From Crossaster papposus (taxonomy: Eukaryota; Echinodermata; Asteroidea; Velatida; Solasteridae): a stretch of 64,000 nucleotides of DNA. The notes beneath the pieces were generated by a model. That model had not been told where the DNA came from and searched no databases. It saw only the letters and a program-made list of their open reading frames with translations. Shown here one piece after another: positions 1-12,819 of the stretch. Position numbers and translations under genes: made by a program. The first letter of the stretch is position 1. Every line of letters begins with the position of its first letter. The DNA lies in NCBI GenBank assembly GCA_037893245.1, contig JBAIAA010000030.1, positions 558,001 to 622,000 of the forward strand, written 5' to 3'.

Positions 1-137
1 TGCAAATTTTGCCATTCCTGGAGGCCCCCCCTCTATCTCCTAACACCCAGCCCCTTCCCGGGGCATGCTTTCCTTCATGCCCTTATTTGTGGGCGGGGAT
101 TGTGTGCACAAACCTATGGCAAAATTGAAACGCGTGT

Positions 138-336
138 GTTAACGTTAACATTTTCAGAAAATCGAAATAAAATACTAACAAAGCATGCCCTGGGTCAAAT
201 TGCTAATTTTGCCATTCCTGGAGGCCCCCCTCTATCTCCTAACACCCAGCCCCTTCCCGGGGCATGCTTTCCTTCATGCCCTTATTTGTGGGCGGGGATT
301 GTGTGCACAAACCTATGGCAAAATTGAAACGCGTGT
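138..336 (+). repeat. Representative satellite monomer
   Basis: One 199-bp monomer, taken from one GTTAACGTTAAC palindrome to the next. The palindrome is 12 bp and equals its own reverse complement, so each monomer offers two closely spaced TTAA tetranucleotides. The monomer also contains SphI-type GCATGC twice, CCCGGG twice, GTGCAC and ACGCGT. Because 199 is one more than a multiple of three, a reading frame that crosses a monomer edge re-enters the same sequence in another frame. Confidence 0.95.
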
Positions 337-378
337 GTTAACGTTAACATTTTCAGAAAATCGAAATAAAATACTAAC

Positions 379-469
379 AAAGCATGCCCCGGGTCAAATT
401 GCTAATTTTGCCATTCCTGGAGGCCCCCCTCTATCTCCTAACACCCAGCCCCTTCCCGGGGCATGCTTT
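379..469. repeat. 15-bp perfect inverted repeat inside the monomer (example copy)
   Basis: AAAGCATGCCCCGGG at 379-393 is the exact reverse complement of CCCGGGGCATGCTTT at 455-469, with a 61-nt spacer. The same pair is visible in most monomers across the window; changes such as CCCAGGG, CCCTGGG or GCATTC break it in some. It could form a hairpin in RNA or a cruciform in DNA. It may also be a relic of the inverted-repeat element from which the satellite arose. Both ideas are inference. Confidence 0.9.
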
Positions 470-3400
470 CCTTCATTCCCTTATTTGTGGGCGGGGATTG
501 TGTGCACAAACCTATTGCGAATTTGAAACGCGTGTGTTAACGTTAAAATGTTCAGAAAATCGAAATAAAATACTAACAAAGCATGCCCCGGGTCAAATTG
601 CTAATTTTGCCATTCCTGGAAGCCCCCCTCTATCTCCTAACACCCAGCCCCTTTCCGGGGCATGCTTTCCTTCATGCCCTTATTTGTGGGCGGGGATTGT
701 GTGCACAAACCTATGGCGAATTTGAAACGCGTGTGTTAACGTTAACATTTTCAGAAAATCGAAATAAAATACTAACAAAGCATGCCCCGGGTCAAATTGC
801 TAATTTTGCCATTCCTGGAGGCCCCCCTCTATCTCCTAACACCCAGCCCCTTCCCGGGGCATGCTTTCCTTCATTCCCTTATTTGTGGGCGGGGATTGTG
901 TGCACCAACCTATGGCGAATTTGAAACGCGTGTGTTAACGTTAAAATGTTCAGAAAATCGAAATAAAATACTAACAAAGCATGCCCCGGGTCAAATTGCT
1001 AATTTTGCCATTCCTGGAAGCCCCCCTCTATCTCCTAACACCCAGCCCCTTCCCGGGGCATGCTTTCCTTCATGCCCTTATTTGTGGGCGGGGATTGTGT
1101 GCACAAACCTATGGCGAATTTGAAACGCGTGTGTTAACGTTAACATTTTCAGAAAATCGAAATAAAATACTAACAAAGCATGCCCCTGGTCAAATTGCTA
1201 ATTTTGCCATTTCTGGAGGCCCCCCTCTATCTCCTAACACCCAGCCCCTTCCCGGGGCATGCTTTCCTTCATGCCCTTATTTGTGGGCGGGGATTGTGTG
1301 CACAAACCTATGGCGAATTTGAAACGCGTGTGTTAACGTTAACATTTTCAGAAAATCGAAATAAAATACTAACAAATCATGCCCAGGGTCAAATTGCTAA
1401 TTTTGCCATTCCTGGAGGCCCCCCTCTATCTCCTAACACCCAACCCCTTCCCGGAGCATGCTTTCCTTCATGCCCTTATTTGTGGGCGGGGATTTTGTGC
1501 ACAAACCTATGGCGAATTTGAAACGCGTGTGTTAACGTTAAAATTTTCAGAAAATCGAAATAAAATACTAACAAAGCATGCCCCGGGTCAAATTGCTAAT
1601 TTTGCCATTCCTGGAGGCCCCCCTCTATCTCCTAACACCCAGCCCCTTCCCGGGGCATGCTTTCCTTCATGCCCTTATTTGTGGGCGGGGATTGTGTGCA
1701 CAAACCTATGGCGAATTTGAAACGCGTGTGTTAACGTTAACATTTTCAGAAAATCGAAATAAAATACTAACAAAGCATGCCCCGGGTCAAATTGCTAAGT
1801 TTGCCATTCCTGGAGGCCCCCCTCTATCTCCTAACACCCAGCCCCTTCCCGGGGCATGCTTTTCTTCATGCCCTTATTTGTGGGCGAGGATTGTGTGCAC
1901 AAACCTATGGCGAATTTGAAACGCGTGTGTTAACGTTAAAATTTTCAGAAAATCGAAATAAAATACTAACAAAGCATGCCCCGGGTCAAATTTTATAATT
2001 TTGCCATTCCTGGAGGCCCCCCCTCTATCTCCTAACACCCAGCCCCTTCCCGGGGCATGCTTTCCTTCATGCCCTTATTTGTGGGCGGGGATTGTGTGCA
2101 CAAACCTATGGCGAATTTGAAACGCGTGTGTTAACGTTAAAATGTTCAGAAAATCGAAATAAAATACTAACAAAGCATGCCCCGGGTCAAATTGCTAATT
2201 TTGCCATTCCTGGAGGCCCCCCTCTATCTCCTAACACCCAGCCCCTTCCCGGGGCATGCTTTCCTTCATGCCCTTATTTGTGGGCGGGGATTGTGTGCAC
2301 AAACCTATGGCGAATTTGAAACGCGTGTGTTAACGTTAACATTTTCAGAAAATCGAAATAAAATACTAACAAAGCATGCCCCGGGTCAAATTGCTAAGTT
2401 TGCCATTCCTGGAGGCCCCCCTCTATCTCCTAACACCCAGCCCCTTCCCGGGGCATGCTTTTCTTCATGCCCTTATTTGTGGGCGAGGATTGTGTGCACA
2501 AACCTATGGCGAATTTGAAACGCGTGTGTTAACGTTAAAATGTTCAGAAAATCGAAATAAAATACTAACAAAGCATGCCCCGGGTCAAATTGCTAATTTT
2601 GCCATTCCTGGAAGCCCCCCTCTATCTCCTAACACCCAGCCCCTTCCCGGGGCATGCTTTCCTTCATGCCCTTATTTGTGGGCGGGGATTGTGTGCACAA
2701 ACCTATGGCGAATTTGAAACGCGTGTGTTAACGTTAACATTTTCAGAAAATCGAAATAAAATACTAACAAAGCATGCCCCTGGTCAAATTGCTAATTTTG
2801 CCATTTCTGGAGGCCCCCCTCTATCTCCTAACACCCAGCCCCTTCCCGGGGCATGCTTTTCTTCATGCCCTTATTTGTGGGCGAGGATTGTGTGCACAAA
2901 CCTATGGCGAATTTGAAACGCGTGTGTTAACGTTAAAATTTCAGAAAATCGAAATAAAATACTAACAAAGCATGCCCCGGGTCAAATTGCAAATTTTGCC
3001 ATTCCTGGAGGCCCCCCCTCTATCTCCTAACACCCAGCCCCTTCCCGGGGCATGCTTTCCTTCATGCCCTTATTTGTGGGCGGGGATTGTGTGCACAAAC
3101 CTATGGCAAAATTGAAACGCGTGTGTTAACGTTAACATTTTCAGAAAATCGAAATAAAATACTAACAAAGCATGCCCTGGGTCAAATTGCTAATTTTGCC
3201 ATTCCTGGAGGCCCCCCTCTATCTCCTAACACCCAGCCCCTTCCCGGGGCATGCTTTCCTTCATGCCCTTATTTGTGGGCGGGGATTGTGTGCACAAACC
3301 TATGGCAAAATTGAAACGCGTGTGTTAACGTTAACATTTTCAGAAAATCGAAATAAAATACTAACAAAGCATGCCCCGGGTCAAATTGCTAATTTTGCCA

Positions 3401-6400
3401 TTCCTGGAGGCCCCCCTCTATCTCCTAACACCCAGCCCCTTCCCGGGGCATGCTTTCCTTCATTCCCTTATTTGTGGGCGGGGATTGTGTGCACAAACCT
3501 ATTGCGAATTTGAAACGCGTGTGTTAACGTTAAAATGTTCAGAAAATCGAAATAAAATACTAACAAAGCATGCCCCGGGTCAAATTGCTAATTTTGCCAT
3601 TCCTGGAAGCCCCCCTCTATCTCCTAACACCCAGCCCCTTCCCGGGGCATGCTTTCCTTCATGCCCTTATTTGTGGGCGGGGATTGTGTGCACAAACCTA
3701 TGGCGAATTTGAAACGCGTGTGTTAACGTTAACATTTTCAGAAAATCGAAATAAAATACTAACAAAGCATGCCCCGGGTCAAATTGCTAATTTTGCCATT
3801 CCTGGAGGCCCCCCTCTATCTCCTAACACCCAGCCCCTTCCCGGGGCATGCTTTCCTTCATTCCCTTATTTGTGGGCGGGGATTGTGTGCACCAACCTAT
3901 GGCGAATTTGAAACGCGTGTGTTAACGTTAAAATGTTCAGAAAATCGAAATAAAATACTAACAAAGCATGCCCCGGGTCAAATTGCTAATTTTGCCATTC
4001 CTGGAAGCCCCCCTCTATCTCCTAACACCCAGCCCCTTCCCGGGGCATGCTTTCCTTCATGCCCTTATTTGTGGGCGGGGATTGTGTGCACAAACCTATG
4101 GCGAATTTGAAACGCGTGTGTTAACGTTAACATTTTCAGAAAATCGAAATAAAATACTAACAAAGCATGCCCCTGGTCAAATTGCTAATTTTGCCATTTC
4201 TGGAGGCCCCCCTCTATCTCCTAACACCCAGCCCCTTCCCGGGGCATGCTTTCCTTCATGCCCTTATTTGTGGGCGGGGATTGTGTGCACAAACCTATGG
4301 CGAATTTGAAACGCGTGTGTTAACGTTAACATTTTCAGAAAATCGAAATAAAATACTAACAAATCATGCCCAGGGTCAAATTGCTAATTTTGCCATTCCT
4401 GGAGGCCCCCCTCTATCTCCTAACACCCAACCCCTTCCCGGAGCATGCTTTCCTTCATGCCCTTATTTGTGGGCGGGGATTTTGTGCACAAACCTATGGC
4501 GAATTTGAAACGCGTGTGTTAACGTTAAAATTTTCAGAAAATCGAAATAAAATACTAACAAAGCATGCCCCGGGTCAAATTGCTAATTTTGCCATTCCTG
4601 GAGGCCCCCCTCTATCTCCTAACACCCAGCCCCTTCCCGGGGCATGCTTTCCTTCATGCCCTTATTTGTGGGCGGGGATTGTGTGCACAAACCTATGGCG
4701 AATTTGAAACGCGTGTGTTAACGTTAACATTTTCAGAAAATCGAAATAAAATACTAACAAAGCATGCCCCGGGTCAAATTGCTAAGTTTGCCATTCCTGG
4801 AGGCCCCCCTCTATCTCCTAACACCCAGCCCCTTCCCGGGGCATGCTTTTCTTCATGCCCTTATTTGTGGGCGAGGATTGTGTGCACAAACCTATGGCGA
4901 ATTTGAAACGCGTGTGTTAACGTTAAAATTTTCAGAAAATCGAAATAAAATACTAACAAAGCATGCCCCGGGTCAAATTTTATAATTTTGCCATTCCTGG
5001 AGGCCCCCCCTCTATCTCCTAACACCCAGCCCCTTCCCGGGGCATGCTTTCCTTCATGCCCTTATTTGTGGGCGGGGATTGTGTGCACAAACCTATGGCA
5101 AAATTGAAACGCGTGTGTTAACGTTAACATTTTCAGAAAATCGAAATAAAATACTAACAAAGCATGCCCCGGGTCAAATTGCTAATTTTGCCATTCCTGG
5201 AGGCCCCCCTCTATCTCCTAACACCCAGCCCCTTCCCGGGGCATGCTTTCCTTCATGCCCTTATTTGTGGGCGGGGATTGTGTGCACAAACCTATGGCGA
5301 AATTGAAACGCGTGTGTTAACGTTAACATTTTCAGAAAATCGAAATAAAATACTAACAAAGCATGCCCCGGGTCAAATTGCTAATTTTGCCATTCCTGGA
5401 GGCCCCCCTCTATCTCCTAACACCCAGCCCCTTCCCGGGGCATGCTTTCCTTCATTCCCTTATTTGTGGGCGGGGATTGTGTGCACAAACCTATGGCGAA
5501 TTTGAAACGCGTGTGTTAACGTTAACATTTTCAGAAAATCGAAATAAAATACTAACAAAGCATGCCCCTGGTCAAATTGCTAATGTTGCCATTTCTGGAG
5601 GCCCCCCTCTATCTCCTAACACCCAGCCCCTTCCCGGGGCATGCTTTCCTTCATGCCCTTATTTGTGGGCGGGGATTGTGTGCACAAACCTATGGCGAAT
5701 TTGAAACGCGTGTGTTAACGTTAACATTTTCAGAAAATCGAAATAAAATACTAACAAATCATGCCCAGGGTCAAATTGCTAATTTTGCCATTCCTGGAGG
5801 CCCCCCTCTATCTCCTAACACCCAGCCCCTTCCCGGAGCATGCTTTTCTTCATGCCCTTATTTGTGGGCGGGGATTTTGTGCACAAACCTATGGCGAATT
5901 TGAAACGCGTGTGTTAACGTTAAAATTTTCAGAAAATCCAAATAAAATACTAACAAAGCATGCCCCGGGTCAAATTGCTAATTTTGCCATTCCTGGAGGC
6001 CCCCCTCTATCTCCTAACACCCAGCCCCTTCCCGGGGCATGCTTTCCTTCATGCCCTTATTTGTGGGCGGGGATTGTGTGCACAAACCTATGGCGAATTT
6101 GAAACGCGTGTGTTAACGTTAAAATTTTCAGAAAATCGAAATAAAATACTAACAAAGCATGCCCCGGGTCAAATTGCTAATTTTGCCATTCCTGGAGGCC
6201 CCCCCTCTATCTCCTAACATCCAGCCCCTTCCCGGGGCATGCTTTCCTTCATGCCCTTATTTGTGGGCGGGGATTGTGTGCACAAACCTATGGCAAAATT
6301 GAAACGCGTGTGTTAACGTTAACATTTTCAGAAAATCGAAATAAAATACTAACAAAGCATGCCCCAGGTCAAATTGCTAATTTTGCCATTCCTGGAGGCC

Positions 6401-7905
6401 CCCCTCTATCTCCTAACACCCAGCCCCTTCCCGGGGCATGCTTTCCTTCATGCCCTTATTTGTGGGCGGGGATTGTGTGCACAAACCTATGGCGAAATTG
6501 AAACGCGTGTGTTAACGTTAACATTTTCAGAAAATCGAAATAAAATACTAACAAAGCATGCCCCGGGTCAAATTGCTAATTTTGCCATTCCTGGAGGCCC
6601 CCCTCTATCTCCTAACACCCAGCCCCTTCCCGGGGCATGCTTTCCTTCATTCCCTTATTTGTGGGCGGGGATTGTGTGCACAAACCTATGGCGAATTTGA
6701 AACGCGTGTGTTAACGTTAAAATGTTCAGAAAATCGAAATAAAATACTAACAAAGCATGCCCCGGGTCAAATTGCTAATTTTGCCATTCCTGGAAGCCCC
6801 CCTCTATCTCCTAACACCCAGCCCCTTCCCGGGGCATGCTTTCCTTCATGCCCTTATTTGTGGGCGGGGATTGTGTGCACAAACCTATGGCGAATTTGAA
6901 ACGCGTGTGTTAACGTTACAATTTTCAGAAAAGCGCAAATAAAATACTAACAAAGCATGCCCCGGGTCAAATTGCTAATTTTGCCATTCCTGGAGGCCCC
7001 CCTCTATCTCCTAACACCCAGCCCCTTCCCGGGGCATGCTTTCCTTCATGCCCTTATTTGTGGGCGGGGATTGTGTGCACAAACCTAGGGCGAATTTGAA
7101 ACGCGCGTGTTAACGTTAACATTTTCAGAAGATCGAAATAAAATACTAACAAAGCATGCCCCGGGTCAAATTGCTAATTTTGCCATTCCTGGAGGCCCCC
7201 CTCTATCTCCTAACACCCAGCCCCTTCCCGAGGCATGCTTTCCTTCATGCCCTTATTTGTGGGCGGGGATTGTGTGCACAAACCTATGGCGAATTTGAAA
7301 CGCTTGTGTTAACGTTACAATTTTCAGAAAATCGAAATAAAATACTAACAAAGCATGCCCCGGGTCAAATTGCTAATTTTGCCATTCCTGGAGGCCCCCC
7401 TCTATCTCCTAACACCCAGCCCCTTCCCGGGGCATGCTTTCCTTCATGCCCTTATTTGTGGGCGGGGATTGTGTGCACAAACCTATGGCGAATTTGAAAC
7501 GCGTGTGTTAACGTTAACATTTTCAGAAAATCGAAATAAAATACTAACAAAGCATGCCCCTGGTCAAATTGCTAATTTTGCCATTCCTGGAGGCCCCCCT
7601 CTATCTCCTAACACCCAGCCCCTTCCCGGGGCATGCTTTCCTTCATGCCCTTATTTGTGGGCGGGGATTGTGTGCACAAACCTATGGCGAATTTGAAACG
7701 CGTGTGTTAACGTTAACATTTTCAGAAAATCGAAATAAAATACTAACAAAGCATGCCCAGGGTCAAATTGCTAATTTTGCCATTCCTGGAGGCCCCCCTC
7801 TATCTCCTAACACCCAGCCCCTTCCCGGAGCATGCTTTCCTTCATGCCCTTATTTGTGGGCGGGGATTGTGTGCACAAACCTATGGCGAATTTGAAACGC
7901 GTGTG

Positions 7906-7909
7906 TTAA
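7906..7909. other. Target-site duplication TTAA, left copy
   Basis: The satellite reads GCGTGTG then TTAA up to 7909, and the element begins at 7910. The matching TTAA lies at 12177-12180 and is followed by CGTTAACATTTT, the normal continuation of the monomer. The target is the first TTAA of the GTTAACGTTAAC palindrome. Confidence 0.93.
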
Positions 7910-7927
7910 AGGTTCAGAGAAATCAAA
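7910..7927 (+). repeat. Left terminal inverted repeat of the element
   Basis: AGGTTCAGAGAAATCAAA. The reverse complement of the right end differs only at the fifth base (T here, G there). Together with the target site, the terminus reads TTAAAGGT. Confidence 0.93.
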
Positions 7928-8088
7928 CATACTTTAGGCCTAATTAAATCGATGTATGTCTAAATATAACTTTACCATAAACCGTTTTTACCAAATATCC
8001 ATTGTATTAAAAATTCACGTCATTTTAGTGCTCTTTTATGTGCCCTCCACTTTTGACTCTGAAAATTTGCGAAATGATGATGTAATGT

Positions 8089-8098
8089 GTCACGTGAC
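8089..8098. promoter_or_regulatory. Palindromic E-box GTCACGTGAC upstream of the THAP gene
   Basis: A perfect 10-bp palindrome with core CACGTG, the class bound by bHLH-zip factors such as USF, Myc or Max. It lies about 150 bp upstream of the proposed THAP start codon and next to the ACGTCA motif. No clear TATA box is visible nearby. Function is inferred from motif and position only. Confidence 0.45.
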
Positions 8099-8103
8099 TC
8101 AAT

Positions 8104-8119
8104 ACGTCAGGTCCAGAAC
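8104..8119 (+). promoter_or_regulatory. Left subterminal motif ACGTCAGGTCCAGAAC
   Basis: This 16-base motif lies 194 bp inside the left end of the element and about 130 bp upstream of the THAP gene start. Its inverted partner (14 of 16 bases) lies 193 bp inside the right end. It includes a CRE half-site (ACGTCA). It may be a transposase or THAP-protein binding site, or a promoter element shared by the two genes; the role is inference. Confidence 0.6.
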
Positions 8120-8247
8120 GGCCGGCTGGGCGCGCGCGTGGGTCGCATGCTAATCTATAGCGCTGGGGTATGGTACCGGGTACGTACTGCAGACACAACA
8201 ACGAAAAAACGAAACAACTAAATCAAGAGTGTCCTAAATATTCCGTA

Positions 8248-8582
8248 ATGCCGGAACGTTGTATTGTTGCTGGTTGCAGCAATACAACAAAAGCAGGATT
8301 TAGCCTTCATAGGTTTCCTCAAAACGAGAAAATCCGAAAGATATGGACAGCAAAAGTGAAGCTGACGAGAGGAAATTGGCCTGGGCCATCTGCTACGAGC
8401 GTCGTTTGTAGCGCCCATTTCATTGACGAGGATTTTGAGGTTGGCCTGCACTCCCAGTTCGGGATGACAAAACTGAAGAAGTTGAAGGCAGATGTCTTTC
8501 CAACGAAAATAAAAGTGCCACTGTCAGCGAAAGAGACACCAAGGAGACGGAGCAGAGTTTCAGAAAAACTGGAAAAGAAACG
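8248..8582 (+). CDS. THAP zinc-finger protein, exon 1
   Basis: This exon encodes a complete N-terminal THAP domain, a C2CH zinc finger that binds DNA. The zinc ligands are C5 and C10 (MPERCIVAGC) and the C..H of VVCSAHF. Other hallmarks are HRFP, the tryptophan of RKIW, a central proline (NWPGPS), and ADVFPTK in the place of the AVPTIF box. A basic Arg/Lys-rich stretch follows (TPRRRSRVSEKLEKKR). I chose the ATG at 8248 rather than 8170 because THAP domains start at the extreme N-terminus. The exon ends at a consensus donor, ACG then GTAAGT, at 8583, leaving two bases of a codon. THAP domains occur in animal transcription factors and in P-element- and Kolobok-type transposon proteins. Here it most likely recognises element ends or promoters, which is inference. 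Confidence 0.85.
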
Positions 8583-8874
8583 GTAAGTTTGAACCGTTTT
8601 TTGTTTACGTGTCCGGAAACTAGGCACAACTTAATTGCGTACAAATGCCCATTTTCCGGACACGTGTACGGCCGAGTAGTTGTGGCAGAGCCGGATTGGG
8701 TTCGATTCAACTTCGGTTTACATCTTGTGATTATACTAATAACCTGATATTGATGGTATTTTTTACGAGCACAATTAATTAATTTTGTTTGTACTGTACA
8801 CTCATTCGTCTTCACTTAAGCATGTTCATTACTAGCGAAGACTTAGTTGACATGTGTTTTGTTTTTATACACAG

Positions 8875-9439
8875 ATGCTGAAGAAACTATTGCTAGTACT
8901 AGGGTCAACAAACGAACCCTTTGCCGATGTGTTCATGGATGCAGAGGCTAGTGACCAGCCTGGACCCAGTTTGGAAATGGACTGTAGTATGCAGCAAGAA
9001 CTAGTTCTAGTATGTATAAACGATTCATCGTATAAACAATAATTAAAACAAATATTATCGGGTTTTGTTTGAGGGGGGGGGGGGGGGGGGGGGGCGGATG
9101 CAGGTGAATGTTTTATTTGGGCTGTATGAAATCTTTTTAAAGTAGAGTTACTCGGTCATAACTCAGTCATAAACAGCGACAATCTTCGCCCATTTTTCAA
9201 ACATACAATTTACTTTTTGTAAAACAGTAATATTAGAAAAAACATGTACTATGATTTTTGCATTTGTCTATTAAACAGGCTATGCCGATGACTTGATGGG
9301 AGAGGTGACAAAGCGTGCATCGAAGTCGAAGAAGATGACAAAAAGAAAGACTGCACCTCCAAGCCTGGTCGCCAAATACAACTACCCATCAAAACAAGAG
9401 CTAATTGCTGCCCATCGCAGTAGATTTAATTTAAAATAG
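8875..9439 (+). CDS. Probable 3' exons of the THAP gene
   Basis: Two open stretches follow exon 1. The first, 8875-9013, comes after acceptor TATACACAG and encodes an acidic segment containing STNEPFADVFMDAEASDQPG. The second, 9279-9439, comes after acceptor TTAAACAG and encodes a Lys/Arg-rich segment (TKRASKSKKMTKRK) then YPSKQELIAAHRSRFNLK and a TAG stop. The donor GTATAA at 9014 joins these two in frame; a better-looking donor GTATGT at 9010 would not. The junction from exon 1 does not keep frame with the acidic segment, so there is either a missed small exon, an alternative splice site or a frameshift. The total would be about 210 residues, far too short for a transposase. I do not recognise the tail. 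Confidence 0.5.
9073..9094 (+). repeat. Poly-G tract (22 G)
   Basis: Uninterrupted run of 22 G in the putative second intron of the THAP gene. It is likely to be length-variable and a weak point for sequencing and assembly. Confidence 0.95.
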
Positions 9440-9761
9440 ATTAACAGAACTACAAATATTTGGGAAAAAAAGAAGCGATTTTCATTGTATTGGGAGGCTC
9501 AATGAAAAGATGTAAATTAAGCGAGAGAAACATATTTGTAACCTGCTCCCACAAAAACAGACATAAGTGTTTTTTTGTTATTTCCATTTAGTAGTACACA
9601 TCGTCAGCTTTCATTTGGTACTAAAACCACCTTTATACCATACATACTTCCAATTTTATTTCGATGTATTTGGGAGATAAATTACCACTTTTAGGACAGT
9701 TTGTCTCGATACATGCATGATTTTTGTACAACCTAACTGAGGGTTAAGTATACATGTACAT

Positions 9762-9767
9762 ATTAAA
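9762..9767 (+). terminator. Possible polyadenylation signal ATTAAA of the THAP gene
   Basis: ATTAAA about 320 nt after the TAG at 9439, in AT-rich sequence. It is one candidate among several A-rich hexamers, and no closer canonical AATAAA is visible on the plus strand. Confidence 0.25.
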
Positions 9768-10170
9768 GAAACGAAAAACTAAAATTGATGCCTGCCAGAT
9801 TTTTCACCCCATCTCAAGTTTAATGAGCTTCATCTCGAAATAGCCTGTCACATTTACTGGCTAAGGATGCAGGCAAAAAAATGAAATTTTCGATAGAAAT
9901 TAGAATTATACCATACAAAATTTCAAGTTTATTGCATACTTTAGTTTTATTATTTAAACAGCTCGATGCATTTGTACATGTATAAATGGCTAACATTAAA
10001 TCAATAACGACTGCAAACCACATTTCTAAAGCTAATTTTCATTACAAAAAGTGCAATTTTGTTTTACTTTGGCGTACCTATTTTAAGACTGCATGTACAT
10101 TTAATCGAAAGCAGAACATTGTACATCTGAAAGTTTTTATAAATAAATCACATTATGCTTACTTTCCAAC

Positions 10171-10176
10171 TTTATT
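10171..10176 (-). terminator. Polyadenylation signal AATAAA of the ballast-domain gene
   Basis: TTTATT on the plus strand, reading AATAAA on the minus strand 27 nt after the stop codon at 10203. This is a good position for a very short 3' untranslated region. Confidence 0.5.
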
Positions 10177-10202
10177 TTAAGACTGGCATAAACAAATCAG
10201 TT

Positions 10203-10349
10203 TTATATTTCTTGAAAACCCTTATATGTACCAGAAAGAGATGGAAATTTCTCTCGAATTTTCAAAACGACACACGAGGGTAGGGGAACACGGACGTTTA
10301 TCCCCAGCACCACCTTGCCATCTGGCGATAAGCTGTGTGCCTATATTTC
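10203..10349 (-). CDS. Exon 3 of the ballast-domain gene (C-terminal)
   Basis: Begins after acceptor TTCTCATAG (AG at 10351-10350) and gives KYRHTAYRQMARWCWG before a TAA in frame. The next frame continues with INVRVPLPSC and a basic/aromatic end with KGFQEI and a stop at 10205-10203. The break sits at TGGGGATAAA; one more G would keep the frame open to the natural end. The last segment matches the family's closing LPSC..IR..FP..G.Y.GF pattern. Confidence 0.75.
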
Positions 10350-10565
10350 CTATGAGAAAAGAAAAATGTGGAGAAAAATGTACAGTAGTTATTTATAAAC
10401 TGTCGGCCTAATGGTACATCTACAGAAATAAAAGGGAGGGGGGAAACTGAAGATGCATCACCGTAGTGACATTGTCCCCATAAAAACTACCTGAACAAAA
10501 AAATGGATTGAAACTAATAATTACCAACTTGTTTTTTTCTGCAGAGGGTGCATCAAACAAACCTT

Positions 10566-10799
10566 GCACCCCCCTCCCCGCACCCCCCTCCCCGCACCCC
10601 CCTCCCCGCACCCCCCTCCCCGCACCCCCCTCCCCGCACCCCCCTCCCCGCACCCCCTCCCCGCACCCCCTCCCCGCACCCCCCCTCCCCGCACCCCCCC
10701 TCCCCGCACCCCCCCTCCCCGCACCCCCCCTCCCCGCACCCCCCCTCCCCGCACCCCCCCGCACCCCCCCTCCCCGCACCCCCCCTCCCCGCACCCCGC
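10566..10799. repeat. C-rich minisatellite (units of 13-15 bp) in intron 2 of the ballast-domain gene
   Basis: About 16 tandem copies of a unit like GCACCCCCCTCCCC, with the C run varying by one or two bases. The minus strand, which is the sense strand of the host gene, has regularly spaced runs of G and could fold into G-quadruplexes in the transcript. Open frames rich in Pro/His/Thr or Gly/Arg/Cys across it are composition artefacts. Confidence 0.92.
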
Positions 10800-10852
10800 A
10801 TGTACTATTATCCCCTTTTCCCCATAAAGAACAAAAAATACAATGTACGCAC

Positions 10853-11080
10853 TGGTTTTCAGTTCCTTCTTGGGCTCCTTGTCCATACTGCTGCCGATAC
10901 TGGAGATATGCAGTATCTAGCACCCATCTGTCCAGGCATACTGTCTGCAAACCAGGATGTTCTGTTATGCAGTCGAGGTCTAGTACGAATACGTCCATCA
11001 TGTGCACCACCTGGTCAATTTCTTTGCAGCAGTCGGATTCTCTCACAGTTGGCATAATCCCACAACCGCCACAAGAACAC
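10853..11080 (-). CDS. Exon 2 of the ballast-domain gene (cysteine-rich core)
   Basis: Bounded by acceptor TTGTATTCAG (11083-11081) and donor GTGCGT (10852-10847). It reads through without a stop: the Trp completed across the splice, then CSCGGCG, the SDCCKE pair and a C-ITEHPG-C-LDRWVL helix-like segment. The cysteine spacing is the best evidence for the family. Open frames that run on past 10853 into the C-rich tract are intron read-through. Confidence 0.8.
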
Positions 11081-11588
11081 CTGAATACAAATTTTAGAAA
11101 ATATTTTAATCAATCAATGCCTTAAAATGTCGAGACAAGTAAAAATATACATATAGCCTGGTGTATGTATTTATGTGTGTACATATTTTGTATTTATTTT
11201 TATTTAGTTAAAAAGGTTGTGTACATTTTACTAAAGATTATTTATGTTTATACAAAACATGATTTCAACATGGTTTATGATTGTCATTATCCATTATTAT
11301 TCACAGTAACTAGTATTATACAATGGAGGTAGGAACCACAACAAATGCGAAACGAATTTGTTTCGTTTAATATGAAAACCATTCATATACATGTACACCT
11401 GTATACATGTACATGTACATGTTTAGCTTTTCCCATGTTTATAACATGTATAAAGCATCTATTTCCGACAGGTTTTGGAGAGGCTTTTTATGAAAACTTC
11501 GCCCAATTTTAAAAAGAGAGACCAATTTGTATATTTCTTGTTTATCATTTACAGTTTTTCCCATAGCTTTGTAAGTCGTTATATTTAC
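11081..11588 (-). other. Intron 1 of the ballast-domain gene, with an ATGTAC repeat
   Basis: 508-bp intron with donor GTAAAT and acceptor TTGTATTCAG. At 11386-11422 it holds ATGTAC-type repeats forming overlapping palindromes. Near 11350 it has a small hairpin, AAACGAA facing TTTCGTTT. I see no gene in it. Confidence 0.65.
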
Positions 11589-11864
11589 CAATTATGGTTT
11601 CCAAATCTTTCTTCTAAATCGTCGTTGTCGTTGTCGTTGTGAACGCCGGGAATTTCATGTTCGCCATCATCATCACCGCTCAAGTACTGGCTCGTACATA
11701 TACGGAACTATTCGACCCTGAAAATCTCGGTGCTCTTCCTCAGAATCAGGATCACTATTTAATTCATCAGAAATATCTGCACTGAAATCACTTTCTGAGC
11801 TTGATGTTGAATCCGAAGACGAAAAGCCTGAATTAACTTCTTCTAGTTCTACCGTGTCTGCCAT
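11589..11864 (-). CDS. Exon 1 of the ballast-domain gene
   Basis: Starts at ATG 11864 with G at +4 and reads an acidic, serine-rich N-terminus followed by IVPYMYEPVLER and a stop in that frame near 11673. A frame shifted by one base carries on as SGDDDGEHEIPG, an Asn-Asp repeat coded by the (GTCGTT)n tract near 11621-11640, then LEERFGNHN. It ends with TG before donor GTAAAT (11588). The continuation makes sense only if one extra base, or two missing bases, lies between the YMYEP and SGDDD parts. Confidence 0.7.
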
Positions 11865-11875
11865 GATCTAGTTCA

Positions 11876-11896
11876 GCGCGCGCGTGTGTGTGTATA
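11876..11896. repeat. (GC)n(GT)n microsatellite just upstream of the minus-strand start
   Basis: Alternating GC then GT dinucleotides directly 5' of the start codon at 11864, a sequence type that can adopt Z-DNA. A similar GCGCGCGCGTG stretch lies at about 8130-8140 upstream of the THAP gene, so both gene starts share this feature in mirror orientation. Confidence 0.75.
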
Positions 11897-11967
11897 CAAA
11901 ACTAATGCACATGTACATAGCGCGCGTGGCATAAGAAGCTAGCTTGCCAGCTTCGCTTCTAGCTTTT

Positions 11968-11983
11968 GTTCTGGAGATGACGT
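11968..11983 (-). promoter_or_regulatory. Right subterminal motif ACGTCATCTCCAGAAC
   Basis: Read on the minus strand, the motif matches the left subterminal motif at 14 of 16 bases and sits 193 bp from the right end. It is about 100 bp upstream of the minus-strand gene start. The nearly identical distance from both ends argues against chance. Confidence 0.6.
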
Positions 11984-11985
11984 CA
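11978..11985. promoter_or_regulatory. Full CRE palindrome TGACGTCA upstream of the minus-strand gene
   Basis: A consensus CREB/ATF site overlapping the right subterminal motif, 114 bp upstream of the start codon at 11864. It suggests host-type promoter control of the ballast-domain gene. Function is inferred from motif and position only. Confidence 0.5.
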
Positions 11986-12158
11986 CGTCTAAACTAAGGA
12001 CGGACAGTCTGTAAGTGGAATTTTTGGAGGCGGGGCAACGTGGTTTGGTTTTTTCCTTTCCAAGTCTAAAATAATTACATAAACTCAAAAACACAAACAG
12101 TCCTTTATTTTGTACGTATTTATCATTAATAATATACTAATCTCCTTTTTTTTGAAAA

Positions 12159-12176
12159 TTTGATTTCTCTGCACCT
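12159..12176 (-). repeat. Right terminal inverted repeat of the element
   Basis: TTTGATTTCTCTGCACCT on the plus strand, that is AGGTGCAGAGAAATCAAA read inward. It matches the left end at 17 of 18 bases. Beyond 18 bp the two ends are not obviously alignable until the subterminal motif about 194 bp in. Confidence 0.93.
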
Positions 12177-12180
12177 TTAA
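12177..12180. other. Target-site duplication TTAA, right copy
   Basis: TTAA directly after the right terminal inverted repeat; the satellite resumes at once as CGTTAACATTTTCAG. It pairs with the copy at 7906-7909. Confidence 0.93.
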
Positions 12181-12819
12181 CGTTAACATTTTCAGAAAAT
12201 CGAAATAAAATACTAACAAAGCATGCCCCGGGTCAAATTGCAAATTTTGCCATTCCTGGAGGCCCCCCTCTATATCCTAACACCCAGCCCCTTCCCGGGG
12301 CATGCTTTTCTTCATGCCCTTATTTGTGGGCGGGGATTGTGTGCACAAACCTATGGCGAATTTGAAACGCGTGTGTTAACGTTAACATTTTCAGAAAATC
12401 GAAATAAAATACTAACAAAGCATGCCCCGGGTCAAATTGCTAATTTTGCCATTCCTGGAGGCCCCCCTCTATCTCCTAACACCCAGCCCCTTCCCGGGGC
12501 ATGCTTTCCTTCATGCCCTTATTTGTGGGCGGGGATTGTGTGCACAAACCTTAGGCGAAATTGAAACGCGTGTGTTAACGTTAACATTTTCAGAAAATCG
12601 AAAAAAAATACTAACAAAGCATGCCCCGGGTCAAATTGCTAATTTTGCCATTTCTGGAGGCCCCCCTCTATCTCCTAACACCCAGCCCCTTCCCGGGGCA
12701 TGCTTTCCTTCATGCCCTTATTTGTGGGCGGGGATTGTGTGCACAAACCTATGGCGAATTTGAAACGCGTGTGTTAACGTTAAAATGTTCAGAAAATCGA
12801 AATAAAATACTAACAAAGC

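Follow-up and report, generated by a model that had tools for sequence, protein, structure and literature searches.

The window, a 64-kb stretch of the Crossaster papposus genome (contig C30, 558001-622000), is filled by a 199-bp satellite (1-7909 and 12177-63997), and its single interruption, 7910-12176, is a clean transposon insertion. The termini of the inserted element read AGGT...ACCT, that is, 5'-RR...YY-3', and are inverted with a 17/18 match (Table 1). When the flanks are joined with one TTAA, they give a 200-base stretch with 2 mismatches to uninterrupted satellite elsewhere in the window, which corresponds to the empty site. Because the boundaries of the element are the edges of the satellite array and the joined flanks restore the satellite, chance is excluded. 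The element carries a gene for a ballast domain of the P2X7 type, known as KolX, together with both ends of a transposase gene, and is almost certainly an internally deleted, non-autonomous copy of a KolX-bearing (Kol0-type) Kolobok transposon. The satellite itself has ~300 copies with 97% matches and contains 584 TTAA sites, ~2 per unit on average. An Rfam search of 7700-12600 gave no match.

Table 1. Coordinates of the element and its parts in the window
Feature	Position	Strand	Details
Left TTAA target-site duplication	7906..7909	.	TTAA on both flanks; one TTAA in the empty satellite site
Whole element	7910..12176	+	internally deleted, non-autonomous Kolobok of 4,267 bp; colinear with full-length L041
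Left terminal inverted repeat, AGGTTCAGAGAAATCAAA	7910..7927	+	17/18 match to right end
THAP exon, transposase residues 1-112/116	8248..8582	+	Pfam THAP, 55.3 bits
Internal deletion junction	9150..9161	.	~3.25 kb (DDE exons) gone; 11-bp imperfect repeat at the join
Last transposase exon, residues 734-783	9279..9439	+	matches the far C-terminal end of P0032 (52% identity, E 3e-16)
KolX exon 3	10203..10349	-	frame broken by a 10-base loss following WCWG
GC-rich minisatellite in KolX intron 2	10566..10797	.	15-bp period, 16.5 copies
KolX exon 2	10853..11080	-	holds six of the seven cysteines
KolX exon 1, including the start codon	11589..11864	-	frame broken by a net loss of 2 bases
Right terminal inverted repeat, AGGTGCAGAGAAATCAAA	12159..12176	-	17/18 match to left end
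Right TTAA target-site duplication	12177..12180	.	TTAA on both flanks

The ballast gene and the transposase remnants

KolX has three minus-strand exons with GT/AG junctions and matching phases, and its sequence contains all seven ballast cysteines and the LPSC..IR..FP pattern. The joined window protein, in which X was typed at both frame breaks, matches Pfam P2RX7_C (PF20478) with 67 bits (cut-off 23.5; E 2.8e-18). In this search P2RX7_C was the only family found and no P2X channel domain (PF00864) was detected, while exon 2 alone gave no Pfam family. The losses in exons 1 and 3 were measured against L024, a related copy on contig C2 that is 94.7% identical to the window copy over 3,589 ungapped columns and in which the frame is open. 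The seventh cysteine lies past the frame break in exon 3. Owing to the losses, LPSC..IR..FP is no longer in the reading frame in which exon 3 starts, and the window copy cannot make a whole ballast domain. The sequence-only reading had described a ballast-type gene with these cysteine and LPSC..IR..FP patterns and without channel segments; both statements are borne out by the P2RX7_C profile search, which it had proposed as a check. Its three phase-matched exons are right as to the phases, whereas the frame is broken in exons 1 and 3.

Convergent to the minus-strand KolX run the THAP exon and the last exon of a transposase gene. The THAP exon is 55% identical to P0034 and P0035 over residues 1-112, and the two exons match both ends of P0032, a 783-aa THAP+DDE protein of Lytechinus variegatus. 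The donor side of the THAP exon appears to be one base short compared with its relatives, so that a following exon would be out of frame. A search of 7910-12176 for the DDE core gave no match between the THAP exon and the last exon, and the window copy is therefore filed as a non-autonomous derivative. Compared with the full-length L041 of contig C264, the window copy gives three aligned blocks (91.5, 83.6 and 92.1% identity) and one large gap. Window position 9150|9161 joins L041 positions 6617 and 3365, and the gap between these takes out the DDE exons. The window copy is a C264-type element minus ~3.25 kb. Its history may be pictured as a cut-and-paste insertion at a satellite TTAA, with the transposase either supplied in trans or acting before the deletion. 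The DDE exons might have been deleted by faulty gap repair, the join bearing a short imperfect repeat.

Related copies and the genome-wide survey

L041 is 7,359 bp long, with inverted ends matching at 16/18 and TTAA duplications. It contains seven transposase blocks, corresponding to residues 1-117 and 283-783 of its relatives, as well as three KolX exons surrounded by GT/AG sites, and all aligned blocks are stop-free. The transposase linker, residues 118-282, gave no alignment in L041. Together with the THAP exon, the motifs GDGRAD, TDRH, DVWH, NHVQGVHVGH..CLH and SLEAFH provide the putative D, D, DxxH, H2CH and E of the transposase, these residues being assigned by motif with the definitions of PMC6004289 and PMC9587614. 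Another family is represented by elements of 9,048 and 9,029 bp on contigs C381 and C1277, with ends at 14/18 and their two genes convergent as in L041; given their close likeness to each other, the two may not be independent. In the C381 copy, one KolX alignment crosses an intron and hence contains stops. A copy on C117 has the left end of the window element and also DDE exons, of which one block contains a stop; of KolX it has exon 3 only. Further deletion derivatives of the window's family are L024 (C2), L042 (C176) and L025 (C198).

The L024 element (3020-6748) is flanked by a TTAA duplication, its true ends match at 16/18, and it is apparently an independent insertion at the same satellite TTAA. 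Its satellite is a 230-bp relative, ~80% identical, in which the element uses the same TTAA as the window copy and lies in the opposite orientation. Such repeat use of a TTAA could reflect target preference or plain satellite abundance. Another locus, L040 (C271:531050-535650), is a 96.9% copy of window 7910-10916 that ends within KolX exon 2, and the satellite unit that flanks it has a variant in common with the window's flank. Rather than a new insertion, this locus probably represents the window locus itself, duplicated or as a second haplotype.

A profile search with PF20478 across the 1.02-Gb assembly (1,841 contigs) found 112 matches at 108 places, and stops were counted by eye in 8 of the 112. 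No match is listed on C30, because the frame of the window KolX is broken. For 20 of the 108 ballast loci a stretch of 10 kb was fetched, extended to 14-15 kb in three cases; L041 and L042 were fetched later for their likeness to the window's family, and L040 is the one non-ballast place. TTAA with inverted ends of at least 14/18 encloses 13 of the 20 ballast loci, a fraction that is not a random-sample value because the loci include top-scoring matches and others picked for variety. The controls, direct orientation and other tetramers within the same loci, gave 1/20 for direct ends and 0-3/20 for each of the other 15 A/T tetramers. At 15/18 and 16/18, inverted TTAA ends enclose 9 and 7 of the 20 loci, respectively, with 0 direct pairs and 0-2 loci for other tetramers at both thresholds. 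Purine ends were not demanded in the search, and 12 of the 13 best pairs begin with AG; the 13th, that of L024, is a satellite pair, and the true ends of L024 also pass at 16/18. Seven of the 20 loci have no enclosing TTAA with inverted ends at 14/18. Among the loci fetched later, L041 is enclosed by such ends and L042 is not.

The transposase genes were surveyed with P0032, for which 64 matches are listed (57 of 2,067 candidates scored). The pairing count is based on the 19 listed matches that cover the first DDE block. The other 45 matches were left out and comprise 26 to later DDE blocks (16 of these being an array on C721), 7 short middle matches and 12 THAP exons. A P2RX7_C match lies within 10 kb of 15 of the 19 listed DDE-core matches and is convergent to it in all 15, while under a uniform spread ~0.002 P2RX7_C neighbours would be expected per DDE-core match; some of the 19 matches, as of the 20 loci above, are near-duplicates, so that neither count represents independent events. 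The remaining 4 of the 19 are without KolX within 10 kb. Seen from the ballast genes, at least 15 of the 108 places are near a listed first-block DDE match and 93 have none within 10 kb. A single genome has 108 listed ballast places, and many of these proved to be genes of transposons, in copies that are full-length, deleted or decayed. A scan of viral contigs for KolX gave 65 pattern matches and no relative.

Six of the fetched loci (L014, L015, L018, L019, L022 and L028) form a Kolobok family of 3.1-4.3 kb with ends AGACCTAC... The members of this family combine a THAP exon with KolX exons, of which L022 yielded exon 3 alone, and none of them gave a DDE match. A two-gene THAP+KolX cassette was considered as a separate kind of element and was ruled out, since the last exon of the THAP gene is the C-terminus of the full transposase. 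On C721 (224981-313568), sixteen matches to transposase residues 532-633 lie mostly ~5.24 kb apart; this is a tandem array made from part of a Kolobok element.

Kolobok membership and the relation to P2X7

The window copy and its relatives L024 and L041 together show the features that define Kolobok: the 4-bp TTAA duplication (in the window copy, L024 and L041), RR...YY termini, and, in L041, a THAP+DDE transposase with DxxH and H2CH. The KolX accessory gene, convergent to the transposase, is the mark of Kol0. In all these features, including a ballast domain as second gene, they resemble the Kol0/KolX elements of the Kolobok-1_XT type described in PMC9587614. Unlike these, the window copy is without DDE exons and its KolX is frame-broken; its putative Kol0 assignment goes by the KolX gene, and since it contains no DDE core, it is placed in Kolobok by its ends and by its relatives. 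The window copy can also be compared with T2-MITE and other non-autonomous Kolobok elements (PMC6004289), which likewise have TTAA sites and a terminal AGG. Unlike T2-MITE, it is long, retains remains of both genes and is not miniature.

Two other origins have to be weighed against a Kol0-type element. One is capture, in which a TTAA transposon that normally lacks such a gene picked up a host ballast gene; the sequence-only reading had taken the gene as transposon cargo in this sense. The gene does lie inside transposon ends and the window copy has no transposase core, as capture would have it, but the full-length elements of two families hold KolX at the same convergent place, and 15 of the 19 listed DDE-core matches are paired with it. 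In addition, PMC9587614 treats KolX as a regular Kolobok gene, and a single contig, C373, accounts for all 12 PF00864 matches, the P2X channel exons of the host, and for none of the 112 P2RX7_C matches. Because the C264 (L041), C381 and C1277 elements carry it, the ballast gene belongs to the element and is not captured cargo; we consider capture very unlikely. The other origin would be a piggyBac element with a KolX-like gene, as occurs in a few families according to PMC9587614. The TTAA duplication fits piggyBac too, but the termini 5'-AG...CT-3' have the Kolobok form given in the same paper, the transposase relatives are THAP+DDE proteins with DxxH and H2CH, C264 carries such a THAP+DDE transposase and not a piggyBac one, and all seven cysteines are present here, whereas most of them are missing from the piggyBac versions (PMC9587614). 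This makes a piggyBac origin hardly credible. For the Kol0-type element, two further statements of the sequence-only reading can be taken up. The gene is indeed wholly inside transposon ends, although the element (7910-12176) is larger than the interval it had marked and also holds the transposase ends. Its suggestion that mobile elements spread the ballast domain agrees with the TTAA ends around 13 of the 20 ballast loci at 14/18 or better, against 1/20 for direct ends; it had named a look for such ends around other ballast genes as a check.

The homology to P2X7 is seen directly in sequence searches. Against PDB sequences, the joined window protein aligns with residues 474-592 of P2X7 chains, with a best E of 7.4e-7, and a profile of 11 KolX relatives finds P2X7 with E 8.8e-8. 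Seven columns are C in all 7 rows compared, two of which are P2X7. In P2X7, the seven ballast cysteines are zinc ligands. KolX and the C-terminal ballast of vertebrate P2X7 (6u9v, 9e3m) thus share a homologous domain, the seven conserved cysteines and LPSC..IR..FP; unlike P2X7, KolX has no channel part and is a stand-alone transposon protein encoded in three exons. It is in this respect like zebrafish nanor and the invertebrate 'P2X purinoceptor 7-like' genes, which are stand-alone ballast proteins as well (PMC7016195). Protein P0001 of Acanthaster is 57% identical to the joined window protein. Its structure model is weak (pLDDT 53.6), and P2X7 chains occupy its first structural ranks.

In a ballast tree of 23 rows and 134 columns, the window row and L024 form a pair (99/99), and the rows nearest to the window row by path are C1277, P0002 and Acanthaster. 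A tree with vertebrate P2X7 had been proposed by the sequence-only reading; in the one built here, the P2X7 branch is 4.5 changes per column long and has no resolved neighbour. Four loci (L009, L010, L016 and L020) have divergent ballast genes, with RHTAYRCY and VIPSC, that by eye are closer to P2X7 than the window KolX is. The tree, in which L009, L016 and L020 are included, showed no grouping of these with P2X7.

That Kolobok elements carry the ballast gene KolX, and that this gene was probably the source of the domain in P2X7, was already published in 2022 (PMC9587614). According to the account given there, KolX of the Kolobok Kol0 lineage resembles human P2X7 over residues 476-595 and has the ballast fold, its seven cysteines being conserved; a P2X4-like gene and KolX fused to give P2X7, and nanor is read as a domesticated KolX. 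Stand-alone ballast genes across animals had been reported in PMC7016195, in the text of which the word stem 'transpos' occurs 0 times. Searches of the open-access literature listed no paper beyond PMC9587614 that joins Kolobok and P2X7 in substance. Our contribution is a check in one further genome, that of Crossaster papposus, so that the proposed route for the P2X7 ballast is now an independently checked case. What is added here is that KolX is strongly conserved, that it persists in DDE-less copies and that two copies sit at the same satellite TTAA. From its conservation and its cysteines, KolX would most likely act as an accessory protein beside the transposase. The seven cysteines may hold a small helical KolX domain, which vertebrate P2X7 would have received later by gene fusion.

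Conservation of KolX in the element lineage

Between families, dS of KolX is mostly saturated and beyond estimation, and dN is ~0.06-0.40 in exon 3 and 0.22-0.67 in exon 2. For L014 and L018, which represent two DDE-less families, dN is 0.11 in KolX exon 3, 0.32 in exon 2 and 0.53 in the THAP exon. A blastn comparison of the two (E 1e-10) gives two aligned stretches only, both of which overlap KolX exons. Low dN at saturated dS shows that KolX has been under selection in the element lineage, and in the same values we see signs that the gene is functional.

This selection could act on the autonomous elements, with KolX as an accessory gene, or on KolX in cis. In the latter case, DDE-less elements with an open KolX would outspread those that have lost it, and copies with KolX only would form a second self-interested class. 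KolX would then be a self-maintaining second component, and the DDE-less KolX copies, as the bulk of the ballast genes, would be selected for KolX itself. KolX might, for example, help in a cis-preferring manner or regulate the full element, and the repeated host uptake (P2X7, nanor) of the KolX domain rather than the transposase would be explained. L024, L042 and several copies of the AGACCTAC-end family are consistent with this, being DDE-less with KolX exons that are stop-free in the aligned blocks, and so are the rarity of stops among the P2RX7_C matches (8 of 112, by eye) and the far stronger conservation of KolX exon 3 than of the THAP exon between L014 and L018. However, the loci were picked by KolX matches, which favours open copies, and the constraint on KolX may stem from autonomous ancestors. 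We regard self-maintenance of KolX, both as a selective process and as an account of the bulk of the ballast genes, as unlikely, and prefer KolX as an accessory gene of the Kol0-type element. The state of individual copies points the same way: the KolX of the window copy is broken, exon 3 alone was found in L022, and in one DDE-less subfamily (L012, L018, L019 and L028) the differences seen in exon 2 are all non-synonymous, though there are only 1 to 3 per pair.
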